Part shown: piece by piece, positions 6,020 through 27,826 of the stretch
Layout of the letters: each line of letters starts with the position of its first letter
How positions within the stretch are numbered: position 1 is the stretch's first letter
Source: an uncultured Rhodospirillales bacterium
GTDB lineage: Bacteria > Pseudomonadota > Alphaproteobacteria > Acetobacterales > Acetobacteraceae
Length of the DNA: 41,190 nucleotides
NCBI GenBank assembly: GCA_903823665.1
Contig: CAIJTR010000197.1
Span: 1-41,190, forward strand
Direction: 5' to 3'
Position numbers and translations under genes: made by a program
Notes under the pieces: generated by a model
What the model was told of the DNA's origin: nothing
The model's input: the letters and a program-made list of their open reading frames with translations, nothing else
Database searches by the model: none

Positions 6020-6031
6020 AAGAGCACCCAA

Positions 6032-7165
6032 ATGCGCCTTTCCGACCTGCCAACCCCCTGCCTCGTGCTCGACCGGCGCGTGCTCGCCCGCAACCTCAAC
6101 GTCATGGCGCAGGTGGCGAGCTATCACGGCGTGGCCCTCCGCCCGCACATGAAAACCGCCAAATCCATCGACGTCGCCCGCATGGCCCTCGCCCTCAACC
6201 CCGGCGCTGCGGCGGGCGGTGAGCAAGGCGGCGTCACCGTCTCCACCCTCGCCGAGGCCGAATACTTCGCCGGACACGGCCTGTCCGACATGCTCTACGC
6301 CGTCGGCATCACCCCGCAAAAACTCGATCAGGTCGCCAAGCTGAACACCGCCGGGGCCGACATCATCGTCATCACCGATGATGCCACCGTCGCCTCCGCC
6401 ATCGCCGCCCACCCAGCCCCGCCGCGCACCCTCATCGAGATCGACACCGGCGAACATCGCGGCGGCCTGTTCCCCGACGACCCGATGGTGCTCGACATCG
6501 CAGCCCGCCTCGGCCCCAATCTGGTCGGCGTGATGACCCATGGCGGCCACAGCTACGGCGCGCGCTCCGTCCCCGAAATGCGCCAAACTGCCGAGCAGGA
6601 GCGCCTTGGCTGCGTCCACGCCGTCTCCCGCCTGCGCGCCGCCGGACACCCCGCCCCCATCGTCTCCATCGGCAGCTCCCCCACCGCCCGCGCCGCCACC
6701 AGCATGGAGGGCGTGACGGAGTTGCGTGCCGGCGTCTACATGTTCGGCGATCTGTTCCAGGCCGAAATCGGCACCCATGGCCCGGACGACATCGCCGTCA
6801 GCGTGCTCACCAGCGTCATCGGCAACCGCCCATCCCAACGCCGCCTCCTCGTCGATGCCGGAGCCATCGCGCTCTCGAAAGACCGCAGCACCCAGGCCAC
6901 CGCCAACGATTACGGCTTCGGCATCCTCGCCGACATGCAGGGCCGCCGCAGCCTCGGCCGCTCCATCGTCCGCACCGCCTATCAGGAGCACGGCGTGGTC
7001 GAGCTCGACCCGCAACTCGGCACCTTCGCACCCCCGATCGGCACCAAATTCCGCGTGCTCCCCAACCACACCTGCCTCACCGCCGCCGCCCACGACCGCT
7101 ACTTCGTCATCGAAGACGACAGCGAGACGGTGACGGCGATCTGGCCCAGGGTGAACGGCTGGTAG
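6032..7165 (+). CDS. DSD1-family PLP enzyme (D-threonine aldolase / D-serine dehydratase-like)
   Basis: An N-terminal alanine-racemase-type PLP barrel is followed by the DSD1 C-terminal beta domain. It starts LPTPCLVLDRRVLARNL; the PLP lysine is Lys41 in RPHMKTAKS. The GVMTHGGHSYGA, IGSSPTA and ELRAGVYMFGD blocks are typical of the family. The C-terminal LPNHTCLTAAAHD supplies His346 and Cys348, the zinc ligands of D-serine dehydratase and D-threonine aldolase homologues. It therefore probably cleaves or dehydrates a D-beta-hydroxy amino acid. It lies 12 bp after the threonine-synthase-like gene, suggesting they act on related substrates. AAAGAG upstream of 6032 is a weak ribosome site. Confidence 0.88.
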   Translation: MRLSDLPTPCLVLDRRVLARNLNVMAQVASYHGVALRPHMKTAKSIDVARMALALNPGAAAGGEQGGVTVSTLAEAEYFAGHGLSDMLYAVGITPQKLDQVAKLNTAGADIIVITDDATVASAIAAHPAPPRTLIEIDTGEHRGGLFPDDPMVLDIAARLGPNLVGVMTHGGHSYGARSVPEMRQTAEQERLGCVHAVSRLRAAGHPAPIVSIGSSPTARAATSMEGVTELRAGVYMFGDLFQAEIGTHGPDDIAVSVLTSVIGNRPSQRRLLVDAGAIALSKDRSTQATANDYGFGILADMQGRRSLGRSIVRTAYQEHGVVELDPQLGTFAPPIGTKFRVLPNHTCLTAAAHDRYFVIEDDSETVTAIWPRVNGW

Positions 7166-9295: not shown

Positions 9296-10040
9296 CCACC
9301 ACCAGTTCCGTGCCGGTTGTGAAGGTGGAAGCGTCAGACGCCAGGTAAAGTGCGGCCTGCGCCACCTCCTCATCCCGCCCGAACCGCCCCATCGGGTGAC
9401 GCAGGCGCGAGGCCTCCCGCGTCGCCTCGGGCGTGGCCGAGCGCGCAAAGCTACGCGCGAGCAACGGCGTGTCGATGGCACCGGGCAGAATGGCGTTCAC
9501 CCTGATGCCATCAGCCACATAATCAAGCGCCGTGGTTTTCGTCAGCCCTAAAATACCCGCTTTGGCCGCGATATACGCCACGTTGTTCCGCCCGCCCGCG
9601 CGCGCCAGCTGTGAGGCCACGGTGACGATGCTCCCGCCGCCCTGCCGCTGCATCACCGGCAGCACCGCCCGCATCCACAGCCACGTGCCGGTGAGATTGG
9701 CACCGATCACCGCGTCCCAATTCTCCGGGCTGATCGTCGTCGCAGTCCCCCCGCTGGAAAACCCAGCCGCCGTCATCAGCACATCAACCCGGCCATACCG
9801 CGCGAGACACGCCGCCACATCCGGCTCAGCCGCACCGGGCTCCCCAACATCACTCACCCGCATGATCGCCTCGCCACCGATGGCACGAACGGCGAACATC
9901 GCCGCCTCCACCGCCGCCGCGTCCCGATCCACTAGGCAAAGCTTCGCCCCCTCACGCGAGAACAGCAGCGCCGAAGCCCGCCCAATGCCGGAGCCCCCGC
10001 CGGTGATGATCGCCACACGCCCCGCCAATCGTCCGCTCAT
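9273..10040 (-). CDS. Short-chain dehydrogenase/reductase (SDR)
   Basis: This is a classical 255-residue SDR. The cofactor motif is TGGGSGIG (13-20). An Asp near residue 38 (LCLVDRD) favours NAD(H). NAAG is changed to TAAG (90-93). Asn114, Ser143, Tyr156 and Lys160 (YIAAK) form the catalytic tetrad, and PGAIDTPL follows. It should oxidise or reduce a hydroxy/keto group of an unknown substrate. The ATG at 10040 overlaps the upstream ATPase gene by 4 bp (ATGA), which decides the start over an upstream in-frame ATG at 10070. It belongs to the peptide-importer operon. Confidence 0.9.
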   Translation of the reverse strand: MSGRLAGRVAIITGGGSGIGRASALLFSREGAKLCLVDRDAAAVEAAMFAVRAIGGEAIMRVSDVGEPGAAEPDVAACLARYGRVDVLMTAAGFSSGGTATTISPENWDAVIGANLTGTWLWMRAVLPVMQRQGGGSIVTVASQLARAGGRNNVAYIAAKAGILGLTKTTALDYVADGIRVNAILPGAIDTPLLARSFARSATPEATREASRLRHPMGRFGRDEEVAQAALYLASDASTFTTGTELVVDGGWLAG

Positions 10041-11707
10041 AACGCAACACTCTCCCGCTCGGCATGGCACGCAGGCTCGAAATGCGGGATCGCATCCAGC
10101 AGCGCCCGCGTGTAATCGGCCTGCGGATTGGCGAACACCGCAGCACTCGCCCCAGCCTCCACAATCCGCCCCTGCTTCAGCACCACCAGATCATCGCACA
10201 ACATCCGCACCACATTCAGATCATGGCTGACAAACAACAGCCCAATGTCATCCTCGCGCCTGAGGCGGTCGAGCAGTTGCAAAATCACCGCCTGAACCTG
10301 CACATCGAGTGCCGCCGTCGGTTCATCCAAAACCAACAATTTCGGCCGAGGAGCAATCGCCCGCGCAATCCCAACCCGCGCCTTCTGCCCGCCGGACAAT
10401 TGATGCGGAAACCGCTCCAACAAACCCTCCGGCAACCCAGCCCGCCCCGCCGCCTCGCGCACCCGAGCCTCCAACGCCGCCCCGTCCCGCATCCCCTCCA
10501 ACCGCCGCAGCGGATGCGCGATGCAGTCAAAGGCCGAAAAGCGCGGGTTCAAACTGTCATGCGGGTCCTGAAACACAATCTGGATCAACTTCCGCTGCGG
10601 GGCCCGATGAAAATCCCGCGCCGGCATGTCGCTGATCGACTGGCCCTGAAAGATAATCTCGCCGCCATCCACATCCGCCAGCCGGCAGATCAGCCGGGAC
10701 AGCGTGGTCTTGCCCGACCCACTCTCCCCCACCAGCCCCAACGCGCCGCCCTGCGGCAACACGAACGACACATCATCCACCGCATGCACCGGCCCCGGAA
10801 AGCTCTTGCGCACATGCGTCAGTTCCAGAAGTGGCCCAGCGCCCGGCACCCTCACCCCGTCATTGCGAGCCCCCGCTTGGGGGCGCGGCAATCCAGGCGC
10901 CAAATCCGCCAACGTCGAATCCCGCCGAGGCGAGGCCGCCACCAGCATCCGCGTGTAATCATGCCGCGGCGACTGAAACAGCGCCGCCACCGGCCCACGC
11001 TCCACAATCTCACCGTTCTGCATCACCGCAATATCGGCGCAATACCGCGCCGCCAGACCCAGATCATGCGTGATCAAAATCATCGCCATGCCGCGCTCAG
11101 CCGTCAGCCCCGCGAGCAAATCCATCACCGCCTTCTGCGTCGTCACATCAAGCCCCGTCGTCGGCTCATCGGCGATCAGCAGCGCGGGCTTGCAGGCCAT
11201 CGCCATCGCAATCATCACCCGCTGACACATCCCGCCAGACAATTCCGCCGGATACGCCGCAAGCCTGCTTTCGGGATCATGGATCAGCACCGCGCGCAGC
11301 AAATCCAGCGCCTCCGCCCGCGCCTGCCGCACACTCATCGAGCGATGCGCCCGCAACACATCCACAATCTGCTGCTCCACCGTGCGAATAGGGTTCAGCG
11401 CCGCGCGAGGGTTTTGGAAAATCATCGACATCGCGGCACCCCGCAATTCGCGCAGATCAGACCGGCCCAGCCGCGTCACATCCTGCCCGCGAAACAACAC
11501 CCGCCCCTGCGTGATCCGCCCGGCCCGATCCAGCAGCCGCATCACCGCCAGCGAGGTCACGGATTTGCCAGACCCACTCTCCCCCACAATCCCCAGCGTC
11601 TGCCCAGCCCCGAGCGAGAAGCTGACCCCCCGCAACGCCTGCACCACGCCCTGCCGCGTGGAGAAACTGACATGCAAATCCTCCACCTGCAGCAAAGGTG
11701 CCGTCAC
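10037..11707 (-). CDS. Dipeptide/oligopeptide ABC transporter, fused double ATP-binding subunit
   Basis: DppD-like and DppF-like ATPases are fused in one 556-residue chain, as in GsiA/YejF. First domain: Walker A GESGSGKS (42-49), LSGGMCQ (156-162), Walker B LLIADE (176-181). Second domain: Walker A GESGSGKT (327-334), LSGGQKA (437-443), Walker B LLVLDE (457-462). The oligopeptide-transporter C-terminal tail follows each domain. All catalytic motifs are intact. Residues 271-284 of the linker are encoded by a palindromic element inserted in frame (10857-10897). It has 4-bp overlaps with the permease gene before it and the SDR gene after it. It powers import by the adjacent permeases at the inner membrane. 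Confidence 0.93.
   Translation of the reverse strand: MTAPLLQVEDLHVSFSTRQGVVQALRGVSFSLGAGQTLGIVGESGSGKSVTSLAVMRLLDRAGRITQGRVLFRGQDVTRLGRSDLRELRGAAMSMIFQNPRAALNPIRTVEQQIVDVLRAHRSMSVRQARAEALDLLRAVLIHDPESRLAAYPAELSGGMCQRVMIAMAMACKPALLIADEPTTGLDVTTQKAVMDLLAGLTAERGMAMILITHDLGLAARYCADIAVMQNGEIVERGPVAALFQSPRHDYTRMLVAASPRRDSTLADLAPGLPRPQAGARNDGVRVPGAGPLLELTHVRKSFPGPVHAVDDVSFVLPQGGALGLVGESGSGKTTLSRLICRLADVDGGEIIFQGQSISDMPARDFHRAPQRKLIQIVFQDPHDSLNPRFSAFDCIAHPLRRLEGMRDGAALEARVREAAGRAGLPEGLLERFPHQLSGGQKARVGIARAIAPRPKLLVLDEPTAALDVQVQAVILQLLDRLRREDDIGLLFVSHDLNVVRMLCDDLVVLKQGRIVEAGASAAVFANPQADYTRALLDAIPHFEPACHAERESVAL
10857..10897. repeat. Palindromic element in frame inside the ATPase linker (RPE-like)
   Basis: The plus strand reads CCGTCATTGCGAGC, then a perfect GCCCCC-GCTT-GGGGGC hairpin, then GCGGCAATCCAGG. 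The flanks CGTCATTGCGAG and GCAATCCAG are the hallmark ends of a palindromic repeat commonly found between proteobacterial genes. ATTGC (10862-10866) and GCAAT (10888-10892) form the outer stem. On the coding strand it is read as PGLPRPQAGARNDG, residues 271-284 of the fused ATPase, with no frameshift or stop. Confidence 0.75.
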
Positions 11708-12573
11708 GTCCGCATCCGTGGATCAAGAATGTCCCGCAGCCCGTCGCCCAGCAGGTTGAAGCACAGCACCGTCAGCATCAGCGCCAGCCCAGGGCACGCC
11801 ACCAACCACCACTTGCCGGTGGAGATGAACCGCGCCCCCTCCGCCACCATAATCCCCCATTCCGGCGTCGGTGCCGTCACACCAAGGCCAATGAACGACA
11901 GCCCCGCCGCGTTCAAAATCGCCCAGCCGAGGTTGAGCGAAATCTGCACCGCCATCGCCGGCAGCACGTTCGGCAGCAAAAACCGCAGCACCACCGAGAT
12001 CGGCCCATCGCCACATGCCCGCGCCGCCTCCACCCACCCAGCATTGCGCCGCACATTCACCTCCGCGCGCGCAAAGCGGATGTAGAACGGCAGATTGATC
12101 ACGGCCGTGGCAATAATGATGTTCTCAACCCGATTGCCCAACGCTGCCACCAGCGCCATCGCCAGCACGAACAGCGGAAACGCCATCAGCACATCCACAA
12201 TCCGCCCCACCCAGCGATCCAGCCGCCCGCCGCGATAGCCGCAGAACCCGCCGATCACCGCCCCCACCGCAAACGAAATCCCCACCGCCGAAACCGCAAT
12301 CGCCAGATCCAGCCTCGCTGCGAGCAAAATACGACTGAGAATGTCGCGCCCCAGCTGATCCGTCCCCGCCCAATGCGCCGCATTTGGCGGCTGCAGCGCG
12401 TGCGAAACATCCGACGCAATCGGATCATACGGTGCAATCCAAGCGGCCAGCAGCGCCACCGCCACCAGCAGCAACGTGCCGGCCGACGCCAGCGCCGTCA
12501 CCTTGTTCGACCGCAGCACATAGATCACGTGCCGCAGCAGGCTCGGCCGCGCCATCATCGCGGCGGCACTCAT
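11704..12573 (-). CDS. Dipeptide-type ABC transporter permease (DppC-like)
   Basis: This inner-membrane permease of the oligopeptide importer family has 289 residues. It has the DppC N-terminal segment (~29-47), the GTDQLGRDILSRIL signature (70-83), further membrane helices at about 90-112, 126-145, 150-167, 208-230 and 255-275, and an EAA loop EAARACGDGPISVVLRFLLP (182-201) that contacts the ATPase. The end ILDPRMRT is typical. It overlaps both neighbours by 4 bp. Alternative ATGs lie at 12558 and 12555. Confidence 0.93.
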   Translation of the reverse strand: MSAAAMMARPSLLRHVIYVLRSNKVTALASAGTLLLVAVALLAAWIAPYDPIASDVSHALQPPNAAHWAGTDQLGRDILSRILLAARLDLAIAVSAVGISFAVGAVIGGFCGYRGGRLDRWVGRIVDVLMAFPLFVLAMALVAALGNRVENIIIATAVINLPFYIRFARAEVNVRRNAGWVEAARACGDGPISVVLRFLLPNVLPAMAVQISLNLGWAILNAAGLSFIGLGVTAPTPEWGIMVAEGARFISTGKWWLVACPGLALMLTVLCFNLLGDGLRDILDPRMRT

Positions 12574-13595
12574 TCCACCGAAACCCGCGGGTCGATGATG
12601 CCGTACAACACGTCAATCGCCACGTTCACCACCACGAAGATGAACGCCATCAGCAGCACAAACGCCTGCACCGGCGCGTAATCCGAGGCCAGCAGCGCAT
12701 CGAGCGCATAGGACGCAACACCCGGCCAGGAGAACACTTTCTCCACCAGCACATTCGCCCCCAGCATCGTCGAAAACACGATGCCCGTGATCGTCAGCAC
12801 CGGCAGCAACGCGTTGCGCAGCGCGTAGGCCACCACGATCCGATACCCCGGCAACCCCAGCGACCGCGCCGCGCGAATAAAGTCGCTCCCCATCACCGCC
12901 AGCATGGAGGCCCGCGTCATCCGTGCCAGTGGCGCCAGCACGAACAACGCCATCGTAAACGCCGGCAACAACAACTGCCGCGCCGCCGCCGACCAGCCTT
13001 CCCAATCCCGGGCCAGCGCAAAATCCACCAGATAAAACCCGGTGATCTCCGGTGGCGTGGACGCAAAAATATCAATCCGCGCTGTTGGGTCCGGTGCCCA
13101 ACCCAGCAAATAGTAAAACGCATAGATCAGCAGCAGGCCCGACACGAAGGTCGGCACACACACACCCAACGTGCAGAGCATCCGCACCGCATGGTCCACC
13201 GGCGACCCCGGCCGCAACGCCGCCAGCACGCCCAGGGGCACCGACAAGCTCAACGCAATCGCCAGAGCGGTGAAGGTGAGTTCGAGCGACGCCGGAAGCT
13301 TCCGCCCAATATCCTGCGTCACCTTCTGCCCAGTCGTCAGCGACCGTCCTAGATCACCGGTGGCGATATCGCCGAGATAGTGCAGCAACTGCACCGGCAA
13401 CGGCTGATCGAGCCCCATCTTGTGCCGCAGAGCCTCAATCTCCGCCTGTCCCGCCGAGGGTCCAGAAGCGAAGAACACCGCCGGATCCCCCGGCAGCACC
13501 CGCATCAGCACGAACGTGATCACCACCACGCCAAACAATGCGGGCACCGACGACACCAGCCTGCGCCCCACCCGTCGCGCGATGGCGGCGAGCAC
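12570..13595 (-). CDS. Dipeptide-type ABC transporter permease (DppB-like)
   Basis: This inner-membrane partner permease has 341 residues. It has the DppB N-terminal helix (~13-31) followed by RVLPGDPA, the periplasmic LGLDQPLPVQLLHYLGDIATGDLG-like segment (61-83, in parts), helices near 105-126, 139-163, 208-228, 260-283 and 310-332, and EAA loop RAARSLGLPGYRIVVAYALR (241-260). The GRSL motif after GDLG and the IDPRVSVE end are standard. It starts 5 bp after the binding-protein stop and overlaps the next gene by 4 bp. Confidence 0.93.
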   Translation of the reverse strand: MLAAIARRVGRRLVSSVPALFGVVVITFVLMRVLPGDPAVFFASGPSAGQAEIEALRHKMGLDQPLPVQLLHYLGDIATGDLGRSLTTGQKVTQDIGRKLPASLELTFTALAIALSLSVPLGVLAALRPGSPVDHAVRMLCTLGVCVPTFVSGLLLIYAFYYLLGWAPDPTARIDIFASTPPEITGFYLVDFALARDWEGWSAAARQLLLPAFTMALFVLAPLARMTRASMLAVMGSDFIRAARSLGLPGYRIVVAYALRNALLPVLTITGIVFSTMLGANVLVEKVFSWPGVASYALDALLASDYAPVQAFVLLMAFIFVVVNVAIDVLYGIIDPRVSVE

Positions 13596-13600
13596 TTGGG

Positions 13601-15214
13601 CTAAACCCGCTTGAGGTCGCGGAAATCAGCCTGCCGGTAGAACTGATAGGTGTAGCCATCAATGTTGCCCGCCATCACCGCATCATGGTTCGGCTGCCAC
13701 AGCATCACCAGCGGCACCTGATCGGCAAACACCTCGATCATCTTCTTGCACTCCGCCTCATACTTCGCAGCATCCGTCTCGAAGCGGGCGGCGGCGGAGA
13801 TCGTCTCGATGTCCGTGTTCTTCCAGTTGGCAAAGTTCCAGCGCTGGTCGCGGGTGAAGTAGAGCCGGAAATAATAGTCAGTGGCGGGCAGCCATGCCGT
13901 CGCACCATCGATATAGAACGGCAGCTTCTTCTCCGCCTCCATCGTGTTAAACTCGGCATCCGGCTTCTTCTGGATTTCCACCTGAATGCCGATTTTGCCG
14001 AGCGCTTCCTTCAGCAGCGCCGCAACCGGCTCAGCCGTCGCCGACTGCCCGGCACTGAACGCGAACGTGGTGCTGAAACCACTGGCCATCCCGGCCTCCG
14101 CCATCAACGCCTTCGCGCGGTCGAGATTGGTCTTAATCGGAATGGGCTGCGGGAAATTGCTGTCCGGCGGGGTGCTGCTCCATTCCGCGCCATAAAGCCG
14201 GAAACCACGGCCAAACAGCGCCGCCTTGAACATATCCTCATACGGCAGCGCCGCCGCAATCGCCTGACGCACCTTCGGATTGTTGAACGGGGCCAGCTGC
14301 GTGTTCACCGTGATATGCGTGAACCCGTTGGTCTGCGGCACAGACACAACCTTCACCTTCGCCGCCTTCTCCATCGTCGGCAGATCAGAGGCGGCAAGGT
14401 CAATCGACAGATCAGCATCGCCCTTCTCGATCAGATTGGCGCGGGTCGCCGCTTCCGGCACGGTCTGGATGATGATGCGGCGGAAATCCGGCAGCTTGCC
14501 GTCCACGCCCGCTTTCCACGCCTCGTTCCGGCGCAGAATGAGGCTCTCACCGGCGCGGTAGCTCTCGACCATATAGGCCCCGCTGGCCGCCGTGTTGGTC
14601 TTCATCCATTCCTGCGCCCAAGGGTCAGCCGCCGTGGCGTGGGACTTCGCCAGCTTGCTGTTGATCATAATGGCGTAAGGCACGCAGAGATTGGACAGCG
14701 CAAGGCGGTCCGGCTGCGGCAGCGTGATCTCAATGGTGTGCGCATCGATGATCTTGAACTGATCAGCACTGGTCAGCGAGCCCGTTGAAAGCTGCGGCGG
14801 GGCCAGCGAGTTGGCGGTAACAGCGCGATCAAGCGACCATTTGATATCCTCAGCGGTCACCGGTGAGCCATCATGCCACACCGCATCAGGGCGCAGATGA
14901 ACACTGATCTTCAGGCCGTCGGCACTGGTCGTATACCCAGAAGCCAACTCGCCGCGAATGACCTTGTGGTCAAACACCCAGTTATTGCCGAGCTTCTTGC
15001 GGCCGAAGCTGAACAGACGGTCATAGACGTTCATGCTCAACCCGAAGGATTCACGGGTGGCACCGGGCGTGGTGGTATCGAGCGAGTTGATGGTATTGCC
15101 GGTCACATAACGCAGCGTCTCAGCGCGCGTCTGTGCGTCGGCAGAACCTGCATGGCCCACCAGAAACGCTGATCCGGCCGTTCCCATCAGAACGGTTCTG
15201 CGAGAAATATTCAT
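13601..15214 (-). CDS. ABC transporter substrate-binding protein, family 5 (peptide/nickel type)
   Basis: This is a periplasmic solute-binding protein of the oligopeptide class, 537 residues. The N-terminus ISRRTVLMGTAGSAF is a twin-arginine signal (S-R-R-T-V-L), with likely cleavage after SADA near residue 27, so it is probably exported folded by Tat. Family features are DAVWHDGSPVTAEDIKWSLD (~110-130), the IEITLPQPDRLALSNL strand and the NNPKVRQAIAAALPYE block (~270). It would deliver a short peptide or similar amphipathic ligand to the two permeases. It lies 106 bp after the amidohydrolase gene, in the same direction. Confidence 0.92.
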   Translation of the reverse strand: MNISRRTVLMGTAGSAFLVGHAGSADAQTRAETLRYVTGNTINSLDTTTPGATRESFGLSMNVYDRLFSFGRKKLGNNWVFDHKVIRGELASGYTTSADGLKISVHLRPDAVWHDGSPVTAEDIKWSLDRAVTANSLAPPQLSTGSLTSADQFKIIDAHTIEITLPQPDRLALSNLCVPYAIMINSKLAKSHATAADPWAQEWMKTNTAASGAYMVESYRAGESLILRRNEAWKAGVDGKLPDFRRIIIQTVPEAATRANLIEKGDADLSIDLAASDLPTMEKAAKVKVVSVPQTNGFTHITVNTQLAPFNNPKVRQAIAAALPYEDMFKAALFGRGFRLYGAEWSSTPPDSNFPQPIPIKTNLDRAKALMAEAGMASGFSTTFAFSAGQSATAEPVAALLKEALGKIGIQVEIQKKPDAEFNTMEAEKKLPFYIDGATAWLPATDYYFRLYFTRDQRWNFANWKNTDIETISAAARFETDAAKYEAECKKMIEVFADQVPLVMLWQPNHDAVMAGNIDGYTYQFYRQADFRDLKRV

Positions 15215-15320: not shown

Positions 15321-16550
15321 TTACAAACGGCAAGTGTGAAACGCGCCACCCTTCATAATCGCGGCGATATGCGCACCTTGGCCCTGGAACACCGCAAGAT
15401 CAGCCAGCGGATCACTGTCCAGCACCAGCAAATCAGCGAAAGCACCAGGCTTCAACGTGCCGATCTTCCCCTCCATCCGCGTGATCTGCGCACCGGTCGT
15501 GGTCGCGGAACGGATGATGTCGAGGTTGGACAACACCTCGCGCCGCAGCAGAAACTCCCGGCTCTGATCCACCTGCAACTGCCCCAGCAAATCGCTGCCA
15601 TAGGCCACCGGAACGCCCGCCTGCTTGCAGATTTCGAGCGAGCGCAGGCCGCCATCAATCACCAGATCGTTCTTCGCCAGCATATCAGCCGACATGCCAA
15701 ACTCTGACGCCCGCTCCTTCATCGCGTAATACGCAACCAGATTGGCGATCAGGAACATGCCTTTCTCGGCCATCAGCTTTGCCGAAGCCGCGTCGATCAG
15801 ATTGCCATGCTCAATCGTGCGCACACCTGCCTTCGCCGCGCGCGTGATAGCCTCCGGCGTATAGGCATGCGCACACACATACCGCCCAAACGCATGTGCC
15901 TCCTCAACGGCGGCTGCGATCTCCCCATCGGAAAACTGGAGCGAATCCAGCGGATCGTAAGGCGAGGCCACACCGCCGGACATCATGATCTTCACCTGAT
16001 CCGCACCCTGCCGCATCTGCTCCCGCACGGCCTTGCGCGTCTCGCTCACCCCGTCCGAAATGCACATCGAGAACGCCATGGCATTGCAGCAATGGCAGCG
16101 CGCGCCGAATACGTCGGTGCGCCTGCGTGGATCGGAATGCCCACCCGTCGGCCCGATCGCCTGCCCTGCAATGAACAGCCGCGGGCCGGGAATAGAGCCC
16201 TCCTCCACCGCCTTCTTGATCCCCCAATCCGCGCCGCCGGTGTCGCGCACCGTGGTAAAGCCCCGCCCCAGCATCGCCTTCATGCTCGCCGCCGCCCGCC
16301 CGGTTGCAAGCGTCAGCGGCACCGCTTCCAAATTGCGCGTGTTCACCTCGCTCAGCATCACATGCACGTGGCTGTCGATCAGCCCGGGCATCACCACCCG
16401 GCCGCCGCAATCCACCACCACCGCACTGCCAGGGGCGAGCGCTTCGCCAACCTCCACCACGTGCTCCCCGTCCACACGGATTTCCACGCCGTGCTGCAAC
16501 GCGCCGAATTCGGGCTCAAGAAGGGACAGATTGCGGAACAGATAACCCAT
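15321..16550 (-). CDS. Metal-dependent amidohydrolase, Xaa-Pro dipeptidase-like (imidazolonepropionase-like subgroup)
   Basis: This TIM-barrel amidohydrolase of 409 residues has a binuclear metal site: His61 and His63 (DSHVHVM), the carboxylated Lys187 (QVKIMMSGGVASPYDPL), His228 (CAHAYTPEA), His248 (EHGN) and Asp320 (YGSDLLG). The MSGGVASPxDPL stretch is characteristic of the amidohydrolase-superfamily prolidases (Sgx9260-type Xaa-Pro dipeptidases). Hydrolysis of imported dipeptides fits the adjacent importer. A Cys-rich RCHCC (151-155) is unusual. The ATG at 16550 was chosen for AGGAG 9 nt upstream and because homology starts there. It is the first gene of the operon and is divergent from the CHR-cupin-eutA cluster. 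Confidence 0.88.
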   Translation of the reverse strand: MGYLFRNLSLLEPEFGALQHGVEIRVDGEHVVEVGEALAPGSAVVVDCGGRVVMPGLIDSHVHVMLSEVNTRNLEAVPLTLATGRAAASMKAMLGRGFTTVRDTGGADWGIKKAVEEGSIPGPRLFIAGQAIGPTGGHSDPRRRTDVFGARCHCCNAMAFSMCISDGVSETRKAVREQMRQGADQVKIMMSGGVASPYDPLDSLQFSDGEIAAAVEEAHAFGRYVCAHAYTPEAITRAAKAGVRTIEHGNLIDAASAKLMAEKGMFLIANLVAYYAMKERASEFGMSADMLAKNDLVIDGGLRSLEICKQAGVPVAYGSDLLGQLQVDQSREFLLRREVLSNLDIIRSATTTGAQITRMEGKIGTLKPGAFADLLVLDSDPLADLAVFQGQGAHIAAIMKGGAFHTCRL

Positions 16551-16678: not shown

Positions 16679-17260
16679 TTGCCAGATCAAACCGCAACAT
16701 CAGCCTCGGCACGCCCAGGCCTCACCACGCTGTTCCATGTGTTCGCCAAGCTTGGCATCACCAGCTTCGGCGGCGGGCTGAGCGGCTGGATGATGCGCGA
16801 ATGCGTGCAGCAGCGGCGGTGGCTTTCGGAGGATGAATTCCTCGCCGGCCTGGCCATGTCACAGGCGCTGCCCGGCGTGAACGTCGTCAACCTGCCAATC
16901 TGGATCGGCTATCGCATGGCGGGCAGCCCCGGTGCCGTCGTGTCCGCGCTTGGCGTCATCGTGCCGCCCATGGGCATCGTGATGGCGATGGCCGCGACAT
17001 ACGGCTTTCTGCAACGCTTCGAGGCAACGCATCTCGCACTCCAAGGTGCCGCAGCGGCCGCGATCGGCCTTTCGCTCTCGATGGGCCTGCGCTCCGGCTA
17101 CCGCCACATCCGCAAACTCTGGCCCGCCTGCATGCTGGCAGCCACCTTCACCGGCGTCGGATTGCTGCATTTCCCAATGATCGAAGTGCTCATCGCCATA
17201 GCCCCCATCAGCATCGCCCTGGCCTACCGTGACGTTAGGGCAGCGCGCGCCAATGGATGA
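16679..17260 (+). CDS. CHR-family (chromate transporter-like) protein, N-terminal half protein
   Basis: This 193-residue membrane protein carries one CHR domain. The hallmark FAKLGITSFGGGLSGWMMRE (22-41) with WLSEDEFLAGLAMSQALPGVN is the transporter signature, followed by about five hydrophobic helices. CHR proteins carry chromate in some bacteria, but the natural substrate of many is unknown. This gene and the next form a short-chain CHR pair, which must assemble together. It begins with TTG at 16679, supported by GGAG 7 nt upstream; no ATG is nearby. It overlaps the second CHR gene by 8 bp. Context with cupin and EutA suggests uptake or efflux of an organic or oxyanion substrate rather than chromate resistance. 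Confidence 0.85.
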   Translation: MPDQTATSASARPGLTTLFHVFAKLGITSFGGGLSGWMMRECVQQRRWLSEDEFLAGLAMSQALPGVNVVNLPIWIGYRMAGSPGAVVSALGVIVPPMGIVMAMAATYGFLQRFEATHLALQGAAAAAIGLSLSMGLRSGYRHIRKLWPACMLAATFTGVGLLHFPMIEVLIAIAPISIALAYRDVRAARANG

Positions 17261-17780
17261 CGACATCCTCCTCAAACTCGTGCTCATCATGGCCCCGCTA
17301 TCGCTGGCGACAGTCGGCGGCGGGCAATCGATCCTGCCGGATATTCATCGCCAAATCGTCGATGTGCATGGCTGGCTCAGCGAGAGCCGGTTCGTGGCCG
17401 ACTTCGCCATCTCCCGCATGGCACCGGGCCCCGGCTCGCTGATCGTAACATTGATCGGCTGGCAGGTGGCGGGGTTCTGGGGCGCGGTCATCTGCACCTT
17501 TGCGATGTTCGTGCCGTCCTCGCTGCTGGTGCTGGCTCTCGCCCGCATCTGGGCACGCAATCGCGGGGCGGCATGGCAGATCGCGGTCGAAAAGGGCCTC
17601 GCCCCGGTCGCGGCAGGGCTCATTCTGGCGGCCAGCCTGACACTGTTCCGCGCGGCCTCCGGCGGATGGCTGGCATGGCTGGTGGCGGCCACCTCCACCG
17701 CCATCATTCTCCGCCTCGCCGTAAGCCCGCTCATCCTGATCGCAGGTGGTGCTTGCGTGTTTTTGCTGATGGGAAGCTGA
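17253..17780 (+). CDS. CHR-family (chromate transporter-like) protein, C-terminal half protein
   Basis: This is the second half of the split CHR transporter, 175 residues. It repeats the motif as APLSLATVGGGQSILPDIHR (~15-34), with WLSESRFVADFAISRMAPGPG, then about four to five hydrophobic helices. The ATG at 17253 overlaps the first half gene by 8 bp and matches the homology start. The stop shares one base with the cupin start (TGATG). Stoichiometric co-translation of the two halves is likely. Confidence 0.85.
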   Translation: MDDDILLKLVLIMAPLSLATVGGGQSILPDIHRQIVDVHGWLSESRFVADFAISRMAPGPGSLIVTLIGWQVAGFWGAVICTFAMFVPSSLLVLALARIWARNRGAAWQIAVEKGLAPVAAGLILAASLTLFRAASGGWLAWLVAATSTAIILRLAVSPLILIAGGACVFLLMGS

Positions 17781-18955
17781 TGCCACACGAAGCCGAAGGC
17801 CAACTCCACTGGCATGAGCCCGCCGGGTTGGAACCAGCGGGCGTCTCCCGCTTCCGCCAGCCGCCGCTCGCCTATGACCGCTTCATTGAGAACGAGGACG
17901 TGCCGGCCATCCGCGCCGCCTCCGTGGTAGCAGGCGAAATCGCTCTGGCAGACTGGCGCAGGCTCGCTGCGCGCGGGGCCTACCTGCCGCTGTTCGGCAA
18001 CGAGGGCGCACTCGGATTGGCATTGATCGAGGTCCCAGCAGCAGGCTCAATCCAACCCGAACAGCATTTGTTCGAGGAAATTCTGTTCGTGCTGGAAGGC
18101 CGCGGCACCGCCGAACTCTGGCTGCCCGGCAGCACCGACCGCGTGGTGTTCGAATGGCAACCGGGCTCGTTGTTCTCAATTCCGCCAAACGCCCTGCACC
18201 GGCTGGTGAACGCAACGAACACGCCTGCACTGCTACTCTCCGCCAACACCGCACCAGCCCTGCTCAATCTCCTCGGCGATGTGGACGCGGTGTTCGCCAA
18301 TCCCTTCCTGTTCCAAAGCCGCTTCGATAACGAAACCGGACAGGCCTTCGACGCAATCGAGCCTGATCCAGTCAGAGACATCGCATTGTGCCGCACCAGC
18401 CTCGTGCCGGATGCCATCGGCTGTGACCTGCCACTCGACAACCGCCTCTCCCCCGGTCACCGCAGGCTGCAACTGGCAATGACCGGACTATCATTGGAAT
18501 GCGCCTTGGGTGAACATCGCCCCGGCCGATACGGCCGCGCACAACTCCTCGATGGTGCCGCTGCGAGCGTTTGCCTGCGAGGGCGCGGCTATCTCTATCT
18601 CTGGCCGGAACGTCTCGGACCGGCACCTTGGCGAAATGGTCTCGATTCGGAAGTCCTAAGGATAGAACTGCATCACGGCGTGATCACCGGCTCCGGCCCA
18701 GGCGGCGGGCGCTGGTATCAGCAAACCTTCGTCACCTCCGCCGAACCCTTGCGACAGCTCGTGTTCTCAATGCCACCACGCCCAGCCGTGCCACCGGGAA
18801 TGGAGACGCGAGATGCCGCGTACGTGGAATCCGTTGATGGAGGCTGCATGATTGGCTACGCGCAGGAAGACGCACATCTCCGCACTGAGTATGCCGCCAC
18901 CATACAGTCACTCGGCCTGCCAAACCGGATGAAGCCCGCCGACTATGCCGAGTGA
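17780..18955 (+). CDS. Two-domain cupin (bicupin) protein of unknown function
   Basis: This 391-residue protein has two cupin barrels. The first carries PEQHLFEEILFVLEGRGTAE (93-112) and SIPPNALHRLVNAT (133-146). The usual HxH is reduced to one His, with His96, Glu100 and His140 as likely metal ligands. The second has GEHRPGRYGRAQLLDG and SVCLRGRGYLYLW (263-275), followed by GGGRWYQQTFV, without a His pair where the metal would sit, so it looks degenerate. Proteins of this type occur in catabolic clusters, but I know of no assigned reaction. It overlaps the previous gene by 1 bp and eutA by 11 bp, so it is surely co-expressed. It could be a dioxygenase-like enzyme or a ligand sensor. Confidence 0.82.
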   Translation: MPHEAEGQLHWHEPAGLEPAGVSRFRQPPLAYDRFIENEDVPAIRAASVVAGEIALADWRRLAARGAYLPLFGNEGALGLALIEVPAAGSIQPEQHLFEEILFVLEGRGTAELWLPGSTDRVVFEWQPGSLFSIPPNALHRLVNATNTPALLLSANTAPALLNLLGDVDAVFANPFLFQSRFDNETGQAFDAIEPDPVRDIALCRTSLVPDAIGCDLPLDNRLSPGHRRLQLAMTGLSLECALGEHRPGRYGRAQLLDGAAASVCLRGRGYLYLWPERLGPAPWRNGLDSEVLRIELHHGVITGSGPGGGRWYQQTFVTSAEPLRQLVFSMPPRPAVPPGMETRDAAYVESVDGGCMIGYAQEDAHLRTEYAATIQSLGLPNRMKPADYAE

Positions 18956-20396
18956 GTCCGAGAGTGGGCGCGTTTTCTTCGCCCGCAGCAGGCGGGCACC
19001 CGACCGCGACAGCGAAATCCGCCTCGTCAGCGCAGGCGTCGATATCGGATCATCCACATCCCATCTGGCATTTTCCCGATTGGTGCTGCGTCGTGCCGGT
19101 GGCCGCGCGCATCTGGTCCGGCGTGAGTTGCTGCACCGCTCCGATATCATGCTCACACCCTACGCAAACCCAGAGAGCATCGACACCGCGGCACTCGGCC
19201 AATTCATCAGCGCCCAATACGAAAAAGCCTCGATCACGCCTGAGATGATCGACACGGGTGCGCTCATCCTCACCGGCCTTGCCGCACGCACCGCCAACGC
19301 CCGCGCCATCGGCGATCTGTTCGCCGTACAAACCGGGCGCTTCGTTGCAGTGGCCGCAGGTGATGCACTGGAAACCCGCCTCTCGGCCTATGGCTCGGGT
19401 GCGGTGGAGGCTTCCAGGCAAACCGGCGCACGCGTGATGAACATCGACATAGGCGGTGGCACCAGCAAGATTGCAATTTGCGCCAATGGAGAAATCGAAG
19501 CACTCACAGCCATCGACATCGGCGCACGCCTTGTTCAACTCGACACCGATGGGCGAGTTTCACGCATCGAACCAGCCGCGCATGACATGGCAATGAACGC
19601 CGGCATCAAGTTGGGCGACGCATCGTCGGAGAGTGCATTGCAGATGGTCGCGCGTGCAATGGCACAATGCCTGCTCGAAGCCTGCGGTGGGGCGGCAATG
19701 TCCACACAGACACGCAAGCTACTCCGCCTTCCAGCACTCCCACACAGCAAACCACCAGATGTCATCAGCCTATCCGGCGGAGTGTCGGAATATCTCCACA
19801 ACCGCGAGGAACGCCAGTTCGGTGATCTCGGCCCGGCACTCGCCACCGCGGTGGCAGAGGCATTTCGCGGTTGGGGACCGATGCTGCGAGAGCCCGACGC
19901 AGGCATTCGCGCAACCGTGCTGGGAGCCTCGCAATACACCGTCCAACTCAGCGGCAACACAATCTTCGTAGACCCAGCCAGCGCTTTGCCCCTCCGCAAC
20001 CTGCCGGTGATCGTGCCCGCCATCGAATGGAAAGCAACGCTCAACCCCATCCAGCTCGCCGAGGCAATCACGGCATCCCTGCAACGGCTGGACTCTCCGG
20101 CCACAGCAGCGCTCAGCTATCGCTGGCAGGGCGAGGCCAGCCACGCTCGTATTTTGGCATTCTGCGAAGGCGTGCTGCGGGCACTTACCGGGCCAATCAT
20201 CCTCGTCGGCGAACGAGATGTCGGCGGGCTGATCGGCGCACATCTCAAAACGATGCAGCCCAACACAGCAATCATCTCAATCGACAGCGTGTCAGTCCGC
20301 GAATTGGACTTCATCGATATCGGCGAATTGCTGCTCGTCTCCGGCGGCGTGCCCGTGGTGGTGAAGTCGCTGGTCTTCGGCACGGGCAAAAGCTGA
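18945..20396 (+). CDS. eutA: EutA homologue, ethanolamine ammonia-lyase reactivating ATPase
   Basis: EutA belongs to the ASKHA ATPase fold and swaps damaged cobalamin out of ethanolamine ammonia-lyase using ATP. Shared landmarks along the 483 residues are VDIGSSTSHLAFSRL (32-46), IDTGALILTGLAARTANAR (102-120), NIDIGGGTSKIAI (166-178), ISLSGGVSEY (274-283), RATVLGASQYTVQLSGNTI (322-340), LPLRNLPV and IDIGELLLVSGGVPVVVKSL near the end. A ~30-residue polar, Arg-rich N-terminal extension precedes the fold; enteric EutA begins about 10 residues before it. The start overlaps the cupin gene by 11 bp. eutB, eutC and microcompartment genes are absent from the window, so its client enzyme is unknown. 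It converges on acyP with a 2-bp gap. Confidence 0.88.
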   Translation: MPSESESGRVFFARSRRAPDRDSEIRLVSAGVDIGSSTSHLAFSRLVLRRAGGRAHLVRRELLHRSDIMLTPYANPESIDTAALGQFISAQYEKASITPEMIDTGALILTGLAARTANARAIGDLFAVQTGRFVAVAAGDALETRLSAYGSGAVEASRQTGARVMNIDIGGGTSKIAICANGEIEALTAIDIGARLVQLDTDGRVSRIEPAAHDMAMNAGIKLGDASSESALQMVARAMAQCLLEACGGAAMSTQTRKLLRLPALPHSKPPDVISLSGGVSEYLHNREERQFGDLGPALATAVAEAFRGWGPMLREPDAGIRATVLGASQYTVQLSGNTIFVDPASALPLRNLPVIVPAIEWKATLNPIQLAEAITASLQRLDSPATAALSYRWQGEASHARILAFCEGVLRALTGPIILVGERDVGGLIGAHLKTMQPNTAIISIDSVSVRELDFIDIGELLLVSGGVPVVVKSLVFGTGKS

Positions 20397-25005: not shown

Positions 25006-26267
25006 GGCTTCTTGTCCTCGCGCAGCTTCGCCCAATGGGCCAGCCGCTTGCCCAGTTCGCGCTCGAAGCCGCGATCTCGGGGCTGATAAAATTCGTGACG
25101 CTTCAGGCCATCGGGGAAGTAGTTCTGGCCGGAAAATGCGTCGTCCTGATCGTGGTCATAGGCGTAACCCGCGCCATAGCCCAGCGTTTTCATGAGTTTT
25201 GTCGGCGCATTGAGGATATGCGCTGGCGGCATCAGACTGCCGGTGCCCTTCGCCGCCGCCATGGCCTGCTTGATGGCAGAATAAGCGGCGTTCGATTTGG
25301 GCGCGGTGCCGAGATAAAGCACCACCTGCGCCAAGGCCAACTCCCCCTCCGGCGAGCCCAGCCGCTCATACGCCTCCCACCCAGCCAACGCCTGCGGAAG
25401 TGCCAGCGGATCGGCAAGCCCGATGTCCTCGGACGCAAACCGCACCAGCCGTCGCGCGATGAAACGCGGGTCCTCGCCCCCGGCCAGCATGCGCGCATAC
25501 CAATACAGTGCCGCATCCGGGTCCGATCCACGCAGCGACTTATGCAGCGCCGAGATGAGGTTGTAGTGCTCCTCACGATCCTTGTCATACAGCGCAGCAC
25601 GCTTGGACAGCAGTTCGGACAAGCCTGCCACATCAAGCGGCGTGGTGTCCTCGACCGCCGCCAATTGCTCCGCGAGGTTGAGCAGATACCGCCCATCACC
25701 ATCCGCCATCGCCCGCAGCGTCGCGCGTGCCTCAGGGTCGAGCGGCAATGCACGGCCAATCTCAGCCTCAGCGCGATCCAGCAACAGTTCGAGAGCCGCA
25801 TCATCCAGGCGCTTCAGCACCAGCACCTGCGTGCGCGACAGCAACGCGCCATTCAGCGCGAAGGACGGGTTTTCCGTCGTCGCCCCCACCAGCGTGACAG
25901 TGCCGTTCTCCACCACCGGCAAAAATCCATCTTGCTGGGCGCGATTGAAGCGGTGGATTTCATCGACGAACAGCAGCGTGCCCTCACCGAGCCGTCGCCG
26001 CTTGGTCGCCTCTTCAAACACCCGCTTCAGATCGGCCACGCCGGAGAACACGGCGGAAAGCTGCACGAATTCCAGCTTCGCCTGATCCGCCAGCAACCGC
26101 GCAATGGTGGTTTTGCCAACGCCAGGCGGTCCCCACAGAATGAGGCTCGCCAGCGACCCTCGGGCGAGCATGCGCGTCAGCGTGCCGGAGGGACCCACCA
26201 GATGGTCCTGCCCCGCCACCTCGCCCAACATCTTCGGCCGCAGCCGATCCGCCAGCGGTGCGATCAC
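25002..26267 (-). CDS. rarA: Replication-associated recombination ATPase RarA (MgsA)
   Basis: This clamp-loader-like AAA+ ATPase acts at stalled replication forks. It opens APLADRLRPKMLGEVAGQDH, with Walker A GPPGVGKT (46-53) and Walker B LLFVDEIHRF (98-107), GATTENPSF sensor 1 (128-136), and the RarA C-terminal tetramerisation domain (YWYARMLAGGEDPRFIARRL). It is about 421 residues from the GTG at 26267, preferred because six Gs lie 7 nt upstream. A TTG at 26282 is the longest alternative, but would sit in the T-tract of the rplQ terminator. It is followed by the pseudouridine synthase gene with 4-bp overlap. Confidence 0.93.
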   Translation of the reverse strand: MIAPLADRLRPKMLGEVAGQDHLVGPSGTLTRMLARGSLASLILWGPPGVGKTTIARLLADQAKLEFVQLSAVFSGVADLKRVFEEATKRRRLGEGTLLFVDEIHRFNRAQQDGFLPVVENGTVTLVGATTENPSFALNGALLSRTQVLVLKRLDDAALELLLDRAEAEIGRALPLDPEARATLRAMADGDGRYLLNLAEQLAAVEDTTPLDVAGLSELLSKRAALYDKDREEHYNLISALHKSLRGSDPDAALYWYARMLAGGEDPRFIARRLVRFASEDIGLADPLALPQALAGWEAYERLGSPEGELALAQVVLYLGTAPKSNAAYSAIKQAMAAAKGTGSLMPPAHILNAPTKLMKTLGYGAGYAYDHDQDDAFSGQNYFPDGLKRHEFYQPRDRGFERELGKRLAHWAKLREDKKP

Positions 26268-26280
26268 CGGATGGCCCCCC

Positions 26281-26320
26281 AAAACGAAACCGGCCCCCGC
26301 TCTTGTCGAACGAGGGCCGG
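26281..26320 (-). terminator. Rho-independent terminator of the ribosomal superoperon
   Basis: On the minus strand CCGGCCCTCG (26320-26311) pairs with CGGGGGCCGG (26299-26290), 10 bp including one G-U, loop 11 nt, followed by TTTCGTTTT (26289-26281). It lies ~30 bp after the rplQ stop and just before rarA, so rarA-rlu need read-through or their own promoter. Confidence 0.85.
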
Positions 26321-26351
26321 CTTCAGCATGTCTGTCCCTGGATGGGAGAGA

Positions 26352-26771
26352 TTATTCGTCGTCGCCAGCTTCCACTTCGGCCTTCGGACCGCTGTCGAGG
26401 CCCTTCGCGGCCGGATCGCGATCAACCAGCTCGATCACCGCCATGTCGGCTGCATCGCCATGGCGCATACCGGCGCGCATCACGCGGGTGTAGCCACCGG
26501 CGCGGGTCTTGTAGCGCTCGGCAATGGTCGTGAACAACTTGCTCACAATCACGTCGTCGCGCAGCTGCGCATAAGCCTGACGACGCGCATGCAGCGTGCC
26601 GCGCTTGCCCAGCGTGATCAGCTTCTCCGCCACCGGGCCCAACTCCTTGGCCTTCGGCAGCGTGGTCGTGATCTGCTCATGCTTGATCAGCGCATGAGCC
26701 ATGTTGCGGAACATCGCGAAGCGATGGCTCGCAGTAACGCCGAGCTTCCGGCCGGCTACCCCGTGACGCAT
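26352..26771 (-). CDS. rplQ: 50S ribosomal protein L17
   Basis: The 139-residue L17 starts [20 protein letters not shown] (normal start MRH). The core [19 protein letters not shown] is intact. The acidic tail [10 protein letters not shown] is an extension over the ~120-residue core, common in alphaproteobacteria. It is the last gene of the superoperon and is followed by a strong terminator. AAGGG lies 10 nt before the start. Confidence 0.97.
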
Positions 26772-26794
26772 TGGTCTGTACCCTTCAAATCAAT

Positions 26795-27826
26795 CTAGAA
26801 CGGCTCTTCAAGCCGTTTGGCGAGGTCTTCAACATTTTCAGGCGGCCAGCCGGTCACAGCCATGCCCAGTGCGAGGTTCATGGAAGTCAGCACTTCCTTG
26901 ATCTCGTTGAGCGACTTGCGACCGAAGTTCGGCGTGCGCAGCATTTCCTGCTCCGACTTCTGAACGAGATCGCCGATATAGACGATGTTGTCGTTCTTCA
27001 GGCAGTTCGCCGAACGCACCGACAGCTCCAACTCGTCAACCTTGCGCAGCAGGTTCCGGTTGAACGGCAGATCGTCCTCCGGCTCCTCATGGCGCACGGC
27101 CTGCGGCTCATCGAAGTTGATGAACAGCTGCAGCTGGTCCTGCAAAATGCGCGAGGCCAAGGCCACCGCGTCCTCAGGCGTTACTGCACCATTGGTTTCG
27201 ACCGTCAGCAGCAACTTGTCATAATCGGTGATCTGACCCACGCGGGTCGGCTCGACCTTGTAGGACACGCGGCGCACCGGCGAGAAAATGCTGTCGATCG
27301 GGATCAACCCAATCGGCGCATCCTCAGGGCGGTTCGCAGAAGCAGCAACGTAGCCCTTCGACGACTCAACCGTGAATTCCATGCCGAGCTTGATGCCGTC
27401 ATCGAGCGTGCAAATCACCAACTCAGGGTTCATCACATCGATGTCATGCCCGGTCGTGATCTGGCCGGCACGAACTTCACCGGGGCCGGTGGCGTTCAGC
27501 ACCATGCGCTTCGGGCCATCACCATGCATGCGCAGAGCAAGCTGCTTGATGTTAAGCACGATATCCGTCACGTCCTCACGAACGCCCGGGATCGAGCTGA
27601 ACTCATGCAGCACGCCGTCGATCTGAACAGCCGTCACGGCAGCACCCTGCAGCGACGACATCAGCACGCGACGAATGGCGTTGCCCAGCGTCATGCCAAA
27701 GCCACGCTCCAGCGGCTCGGCAATGATCGTGGCCACGCGCGCCGGATCGGAACCGGGCTCGACGTCGAGCTTTTCCGGCTTGATCAGCGATTGCCAATTC
27801 TTTTGAAGAACTGCGGATAATCTCAT
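26795..27826 (-). CDS. rpoA: RNA polymerase alpha subunit
   Basis: The alpha subunit, 343 residues, nucleates RNA polymerase assembly through its N-terminal domain ([37 protein letters not shown]) and contacts UP elements and activators through its C-terminal domain ([37 protein letters not shown]). The ATG at 27826 was chosen: family homology starts there and it lies 7 bp after rpsK. The upstream in-frame extension runs back through rpsK. Confidence 0.97.

Follow-up and report, generated by a model that had tools for sequence, protein, structure and literature searches.

EutA, the ethanolamine ammonia-lyase reactivating factor (family PF06277), is presented in PMC5821096 as needing ATP to strip its enzyme of damaged cofactor; in PMC5924519 the same name is used for an ectoine racemase. 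The subject of this study is an EutA-like protein encoded at positions 18945–20396 (forward strand, as are all the features of its unit described below) of a 41,190-nucleotide stretch of DNA from an uncultured Rhodospirillales bacterium of the Acetobacteraceae. This stretch, called the window here, is the whole of contig C197 (CAIJTR010000197.1) in a genome of 4.5 Mb divided among 211 contigs. The gene is the last of four same-strand open reading frames spanning 16679–20396 in the order CHR1, CHR2, two-domain cupin (bicupin) and EutA-like, with successive overlaps of 8, 1 (TGATG) and 11 bp; an earlier note on this DNA had taken the four to be one unit, and the overlaps on which it relied are confirmed. 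EutA-like ATPases of this kind are usually paired with a bicupin in scattered alphaproteobacteria, which suggests an unstudied ATP-driven helper of the bicupin rather than a misplaced ethanolamine gene. No description of such a partnership was found in the open-licence literature searched.

A branch of EutA-like ATPases paired with bicupins

The window protein (483 residues) has a nearly full-length match to PF06277 (residues 27–478), scoring 361 bits against a cut-off of 27. It nevertheless misses all four of the NCBIfam equivalog cut-offs for EutA (274.5 bits against 598, 261.9 against 769, 213.6 against 799 and 168.6 against 952). Its AlphaFold model (predicted local distance difference test score, pLDDT, 88.5) shows an actin-type fold; the best match is to Ppx/GppA (Z 17.1), and lower ones are to FtsA and to the activators of 2-hydroxyacyl-CoA dehydratase (1hux, Z 13.4) and benzoyl-CoA reductase (9gai, Z 13.7); these similarities (Z 13–17 to Ppx/GppA, FtsA and HgdC), together with invariant nucleotide motifs, place it among the actin-fold (ASKHA) ATPases. 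The motifs, with the residues that are invariant in 34 aligned EutA proteins, are G-x-D-x-G at residues 31–36 (19035–19052; G31, D33 and G35), NIDIGGGT at residues 166–173 (19440–19463; D168, G170–G172 and T173) and SGGV at residues 277–280 (19773–19784; S277–V280), which we take to be, respectively, a phosphate-1 loop, a phosphate-2 loop and an adenosine-type motif. The likeness to the two activators lies in the actin fold and in the idea of an ATPase that serves a metalloenzyme, whereas a single-sequence search of solved structures returned no EutA and no match to either activator.

In order to see the protein in context, 83 EutA copies of this branch were considered together with their surroundings (the window included, all of them from Alphaproteobacteria), in stretches of varying length of which only 51 have flanks of 5 kb or more both before and after the gene. 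Left out of this set were seven EutA fragments, the S. chiapasense and S. mexicanum loci and a second S. terangae place, and spurious short EutA frames (L038, L041 and L048; G, C and L are our handles for genomes, contigs and loci) were dropped before counting. Given the many near relatives, targeted families and short flanks, counts from these 83 copies are neither independent nor unbiased. A bicupin lies within 300 bp of EutA in 67 of the 83, a recurrence which, like that of the four-gene order in the window's genus (below), makes the arrangement more than a chance one. Nine of the 16 other copies have UbiD within 100 bp on one side of EutA together with a single-domain cupin 20–775 bp away (and, in seven of the nine, a NicO-type transporter gene directly beside EutA), three more (L077, L127 and L153) lie less than 1 kb from a contig end, and in L154 the bicupin is 1.3 kb off. 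Many genomes contain two to four EutA copies, mostly with a bicupin beside each. For 60 adjacent pairs, the distances among EutA proteins and those among bicupins are closely correlated (Mantel r 0.884, the highest of 2000 shuffles being 0.142), to which shared species history contributes, and the nearest neighbour is identical for EutA and bicupin in 33 of the 60.

Canonical EutA presents a different picture: each of the seven copies fetched is accompanied by adjacent eutB and eutC genes (two of the seven are on haloarchaeal plasmids, and a 398-genome phylum sample supplied the other five), whereas neither gene was found in the stretch fetched for any of the 83 copies. In a tree of 50 EutA proteins, a single branch (support 97/99) splits 43 copies of the present branch from the seven eutBC-linked ones, so the cupin-linked EutA does form a clade of its own, a question that the earlier note had raised; recruitment of the protein away from ethanolamine ammonia-lyase, one of the possibilities considered in that note, is well supported and probable. 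One of the five from the phylum sample (G582, locus L122) is itself from an alphaproteobacterium, implying that the canonical form is present in this class too; it is 28% identical to the window protein and has a very long branch in the tree. In the two haloarchaeal plasmids (L047 and L048) the gene order is eutB-eutC-eutA; the annotation of the parts read, which comes from incomplete plasmid gene tables, shows no microcompartment genes.

The wider neighbourhoods of the 83 copies (up to 10 kb) contain tricarboxylate transporter genes of the TctC type in 38 cases and the TctA type in 23, Rieske oxygenase genes in 18, NMT1-type genes in 32 and UbiD in 16; the corresponding figures for 40 control stretches (20 kb each, from two genomes) are 3, 2, 2, 0 and 2. 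The NMT1-type proteins, which show only a weak NMT1 match in Pfam, might be called ‘Pht5-like’ from their sequence. Some arrangements are conserved in more detail. A unit of UbiD, EutA-like, NicO and single-domain cupin genes occurs in two genera (L090, L092, L095, L126, L128, L131 and L140), and is followed in L095, where the genes were typed using Pfam, by RidA, ornithine-cyclodeaminase-like and NMT1-type genes. Between the genes for a Rieske oxygenase and a His-tailed EutA there is one for a protein some 165 residues long (L038:14274–14771, with a counterpart in L041); the L038 copy is without a Pfam match, and the counterparts in L045 and L046 are beside the Rieske gene. A 470-residue protein, also without a Pfam match (L084:4320–5732), recurs as a conserved neighbour of the bicupin-EutA pair in several genomes (cluster 26/c26).

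The bicupin and its putative metal sites

The bicupin (17780–18955, 391 residues) has a Cupin_2 match (34.9 bits) that is confined to the first of its two cupin domains; the AlphaFold model (pLDDT 88.2) and the fold matches reveal the other barrel. Using VIA-align, the model matches salicylate 1,2-dioxygenase first (2phd, Z 21.5, root-mean-square deviation 4.3, 277 aligned residues), with gentisate 1,2-dioxygenase (3bu7) at Z 21.0 and oxalate decarboxylases and seed globulins at Z 18–19. The protein thus belongs to the bicupin fold and resembles the salicylate and gentisate dioxygenases, but as the fold is common to these dioxygenases, oxalate decarboxylases and seed globulins, membership of it is not exclusive. 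Other likenesses to the salicylate, gentisate and 5-aminosalicylate 1,2-dioxygenases are found in the aromatic-type genes, among them those for Rieske oxygenase and UbiD, that lie close by in relatives, and in weak profile matches that all miss the family cut-offs: the window bicupin scores 16 bits against 650 for MabB, four relatives score 25.7–39.8 against the same cut-off, and one of these reaches 26.4 against 442.1 for gentisate dioxygenase. Set against this, identity over the fold match is 12–13%, and the three-His set of most EutA-linked bicupins is in domain 2. The specific assignment as gentisate dioxygenase was rejected because of the missed cut-offs. A single-sequence search of solved structures with a relative's bicupin gave weak cupin matches only.

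The metal site of salicylate and gentisate dioxygenases is taken here to be H-x-H plus a further His. Putative ligands were tabulated for 85 bicupins (those of fewer than 330 residues being left out), 61 of which adjoin EutA, and in 47 of these 61 the H-x-H and motif-2 His of domain 2 are both kept. The 14 that are without the domain-2 set (nine with Y-x-P and five that are CHR-linked) all retain the domain-1 histidines of both motifs; every one of the 61 therefore has either the domain-2 three-His set or both domain-1 histidines, and the window unit is of the second kind. Its domain 1 has E-x-H-x-x-E-E as motif 1 (residues 94–100; 18059–18079), which is kept in the five CHR-linked bicupins with E or D at residue 99, and its motif-2 His is residue 140. 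In domain 2, the ligand table shows Q-x-L (residues 255 and 257; 18542–18550) at the place of the family H-x-H, and Q-Q-T (residues 314–316; 18719–18727) at that of H-Q-H. The window protein consequently does not have a three-His site of the dioxygenase type, its complement being E-x-H and the motif-2 His in domain 1 and Q-x-L and Q in domain 2. Decay of domain 2 can be followed by degrees among the CHR-linked bicupins, from H-x-L/H-Q-S (G003) and H-x-L/H-Q-V (G007) through the Q-x-L/Q-Q-T of the window to R-x-V/V-Q-E (G001 and G004). In the family of G417, four tandem bicupin genes stand by one EutA-like gene (L150, L152 and L156), with major facilitator superfamily transporter genes on the opposite side.

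Possible metal supply and the proposed role of the ATPase

Two features that bear on metals occur in relatives of the window pair only. The first is the presence of genes for NicO-type transporters, which can carry cobalt as well as nickel; these lie within 10 kb of EutA in 14 of the 83 copies, from six genera (in eight cases within 100 bp), and the same queries found none in the 40 control stretches. Two of these loci were checked using Pfam and one is annotated, while the others were recognised by tblastn similarity (L124 being just a gene end at a contig edge). In Phyllobacterium, according to the annotation, EutA, a HoxN/HupN/NixA transporter and NikR are side by side. Neither a urease nor a hydrogenase gene was seen in three NicO neighbourhoods (L045 as annotated, and parts of L086 and L095 typed using Pfam). 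The second feature is a supported EutA clade of nine (100/99) in which a His/Asp stretch is present at the N terminus and 10–18 histidines in a tail at the C terminus; a further tally adds six copies with at least eight tail histidines and one with six (L038 and L041, omitted by a later tail-histidine script as their frames were cut, are counted from an earlier tail analysis). Canonical EutA copies have no such tails.

The reading that we favour, to which we would give not quite an even chance, is that this actin-fold ATPase loads or reactivates the metal site of its catabolic bicupin partner. What we infer of the complex, the use of ATP, the loading of metal, the substrate and the CHR cargo may be put as follows. 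The EutA-like ATPase would bind the bicupin and spend ATP to open it, whereupon the catalytic metal could be loaded or a spoiled metal replaced, as EutA acts but at a different centre; the bicupin would probably be an oxygenase that requires a metal and takes part where organic acids, aromatic or other, are taken up and degraded, and in the window's genus the CHR pair, added in front, would probably move the substrate or product anion. The window protein would then probably share with EutA the role of an ATP-driven helper of a metal-centred enzyme, while differing in its partner and, in some members of the branch, in the His tails. If the pairing is as proposed, EutA-type ATPases would not be restricted to cobalamin enzymes but would open metal-centred enzymes more generally, and cupin oxygenases, which are usually thought to acquire their metal unaided, would include some with a dedicated ATP-driven helper. 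The label ‘ethanolamine ammonia-lyase reactivating factor EutA’, given to such proteins in Phyllobacterium records, would be misleading as to both ethanolamine use and B12 dependence.

The partnership is most interesting in those relatives that have an intact domain 2 and His tails. Nickel as the metal is plausible, but no other part of the proposal is so specific or so insecure. A more ambitious claim, that these EutA-like ATPases form a new chaperone class, inserting or exchanging the metal of bicupin oxygenases that depend on nickel (or cobalt) in the organic-acid catabolism of alphaproteobacteria, with His tails and NicO/NikR supplying the metal, seems to us rather unlikely.

Several observations weigh against the metal-site proposal. 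In three copies (L078, L124 and L133) a cupin was not found near EutA, and L077 may be without one too, given that its close relative L078 has none; the nine copies that lie beside UbiD without an adjoining bicupin imply that something other than a bicupin may at times be the client. The NicO genes are near only the 14 copies mentioned, seven of these being from one genus. Foldseek places the manganese bicupins MncA and oxalate decarboxylase first, with salicylate dioxygenase at rank 21, and EutB is present in five of the eight EutA-bearing genomes among 60 relatives. As to the window itself, its bicupin has lost the putative domain-2 ligands, no NicO gene is near its EutA copy, and its EutA subclade has no His-rich tails; it is thus in the window that the case is weakest.

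Amongst other explanations, it may be supposed that the EutA-like protein is a catalytic subunit and not a chaperone, that is, an ATP-dependent enzyme activating a pathway substrate like related actin-fold kinases and activators. Its fold matches do include Ppx/GppA, sugar-type kinases and the two CoA-enzyme activators, and the gene is found among catabolic genes in many relatives; however, by sequence it is closest to EutA, and the presence of a bicupin beside most copies in multi-EutA genomes fits better with a dedicated helper, so that we regard this explanation as unlikely. The capacity of NicO-type transporters for cobalt would suit a reactivase of some different adenosylcobalamin enzyme encoded away from the locus. 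Reactivation of a B12 enzyme is, moreover, the role described for EutA in PMC5821096, but no B12 enzyme recurs among the identified neighbours (many neighbours being untyped, and the genome-wide search covering EutB and EutC only), and in Phyllobacterium the NikR gene next to the transporter speaks for nickel; this we consider distinctly improbable. Much the same low probability attaches to the possibility, close to one raised in the earlier note, that EutA and the bicupin sense or regulate uptake while CHR does the transporting: the CHR-linked bicupins of the window's genus have lost their domain-2 metal site, as a sensor might, but the great majority of EutA-adjacent bicupins tabulated (47 of 61) keep it, and CHR genes are near only nine of the 83 EutA copies.

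There remains the case of an ordinary EutA displaced from eutBC and still reactivating an ethanolamine ammonia-lyase encoded elsewhere in the genome. The earlier note had reported eutBC to be absent from at least 16 kb upstream and 20 kb downstream, which holds for the window: among all 45 script-called open reading frames, and six alternatives scanned where the called frame had no match, Pfam gave no EutB, EutC, microcompartment or cobalamin family above cut-off besides the PF06277 EutA. It does not hold for the genome, where eutB and eutC form a two-gene unit without eutA (L006:11656–13724, on contig C200 of G000) that has ribosomal protein genes (L11, L1 and L10) and glycosyltransferases on either side. 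The single strong EutA in this genome is the window copy; a second, weak match on C60, covering 45 profile positions and similar to one seen in many relatives, is taken to be FtsA. The arrangement that the earlier note would have regarded as marking a merely displaced eutA, namely eutBC in the same genome with no eutA of its own, is thus formally present, but it is not decisive, as eutBC without EutA is ordinary in the class (27 of 28 genomes with EutB) and its occurrence here is no proof of displacement.

These figures come from a class sample of 385 genomes, in which the criterion for EutA was a match to the window protein as query at E ≤ 1e-15; the EutA and EutB counts were each made over 385 genomes, taken to be the same draw since the genome handles coincide. 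EutA was found in 11 genomes, EutB in 28, and both in one (the window's). Chance would give about 0.8 shared genomes, so that this result indicates an absence of association and not avoidance; an anticorrelation of EutA with EutB was rejected for the same reason. The 60 relatives comprise eight with strong EutA and 21 with EutB, five having both and 16 EutB alone, and the three with EutA alone are assemblies of 92%, 92% and 74% completeness. Although the eutBC unit without its own eutA and the five relatives having both genes speak for displacement, it is the least probable of the explanations considered, given a coincidence with EutB no greater than chance in the class, the relatives that have one gene without the other (three of eight with EutA, 16 of 21 with EutB), equivalog scores of at best 274.5 bits where 598 are needed, and a separate clade linked to the bicupin.

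In families targeted for known EutA carriage, EutA was present in 3 of 61, 1 of 2, 12 of 13 and 11 of 11 genomes; the bicupin-EutA pair, rare overall judging by EutA in 11 of the 385 class genomes, is common in some families, as the last two of these figures show. Roseibium marinum was the single named relative in the scan of genome contigs.

The CHR pair and the remainder of the window

CHR1 (16679–17260, 193 residues, with a TTG start) and CHR2 (17253–17780, 175 residues) are short-chain membrane proteins of the chromate-transporter family, both of them above the PF02417 cut-off of 28.6 bits (at 106.7 and 121.3 bits respectively). Like the described short-chain CHR pairs, they are two adjacent single-domain proteins. 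They differ from the CHR chromate transporters in missing the NCBIfam equivalog cut-offs for chromate efflux (ChrA/ChrB), with at most 53.3 bits against 250, and 74.9 against 171.7 for TIGR00937, and in that no chromate-resistance gene was recognised among the Pfam-scanned open reading frames of the window.

The order CHR1-CHR2-bicupin-EutA is kept in five of the eight genomes examined from the window's genus (the window's own, G000, together with G001, G003, G004 and G007); of the other three, two have a contig that starts inside the bicupin and one has no EutA. The CHR-linked EutA copies, with one of those whose contig starts inside the bicupin, form a clade with support of 100/100. To this extent the four-gene order that the earlier note proposed to seek across the alphaproteobacteria has been found, but among the copies considered only within the genus; the core is bicupin and EutA. 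Among the 83 copies the CHR pair adjoins bicupin-EutA in that genus alone, for which reason CHR was rejected as a core partner, contrary to the place that the earlier note had given it. In Phyllobacterium, a CHR pair is found in the same region as two EutA genes, at about 7.7–14.8 kb from them. The CHR pair looks like a late, genus-level addition to a core of bicupin and EutA.

Gene calls in the window and in its relatives were made using a rough script based on guanine-cytosine (GC) content by position, plus tblastn. The script called the wrong strand in the window at 4892–7093 and 25035–26798, implying that small or misread genes in relatives may have been overlooked. Divergent from the CHR unit, the window also encodes an ATP-binding cassette transporter of the dipeptide/oligopeptide type (10037–15214), made up of two permeases, a double ATPase and a binding protein, and adjoining its genes is that of an amidohydrolase (15321–16550).

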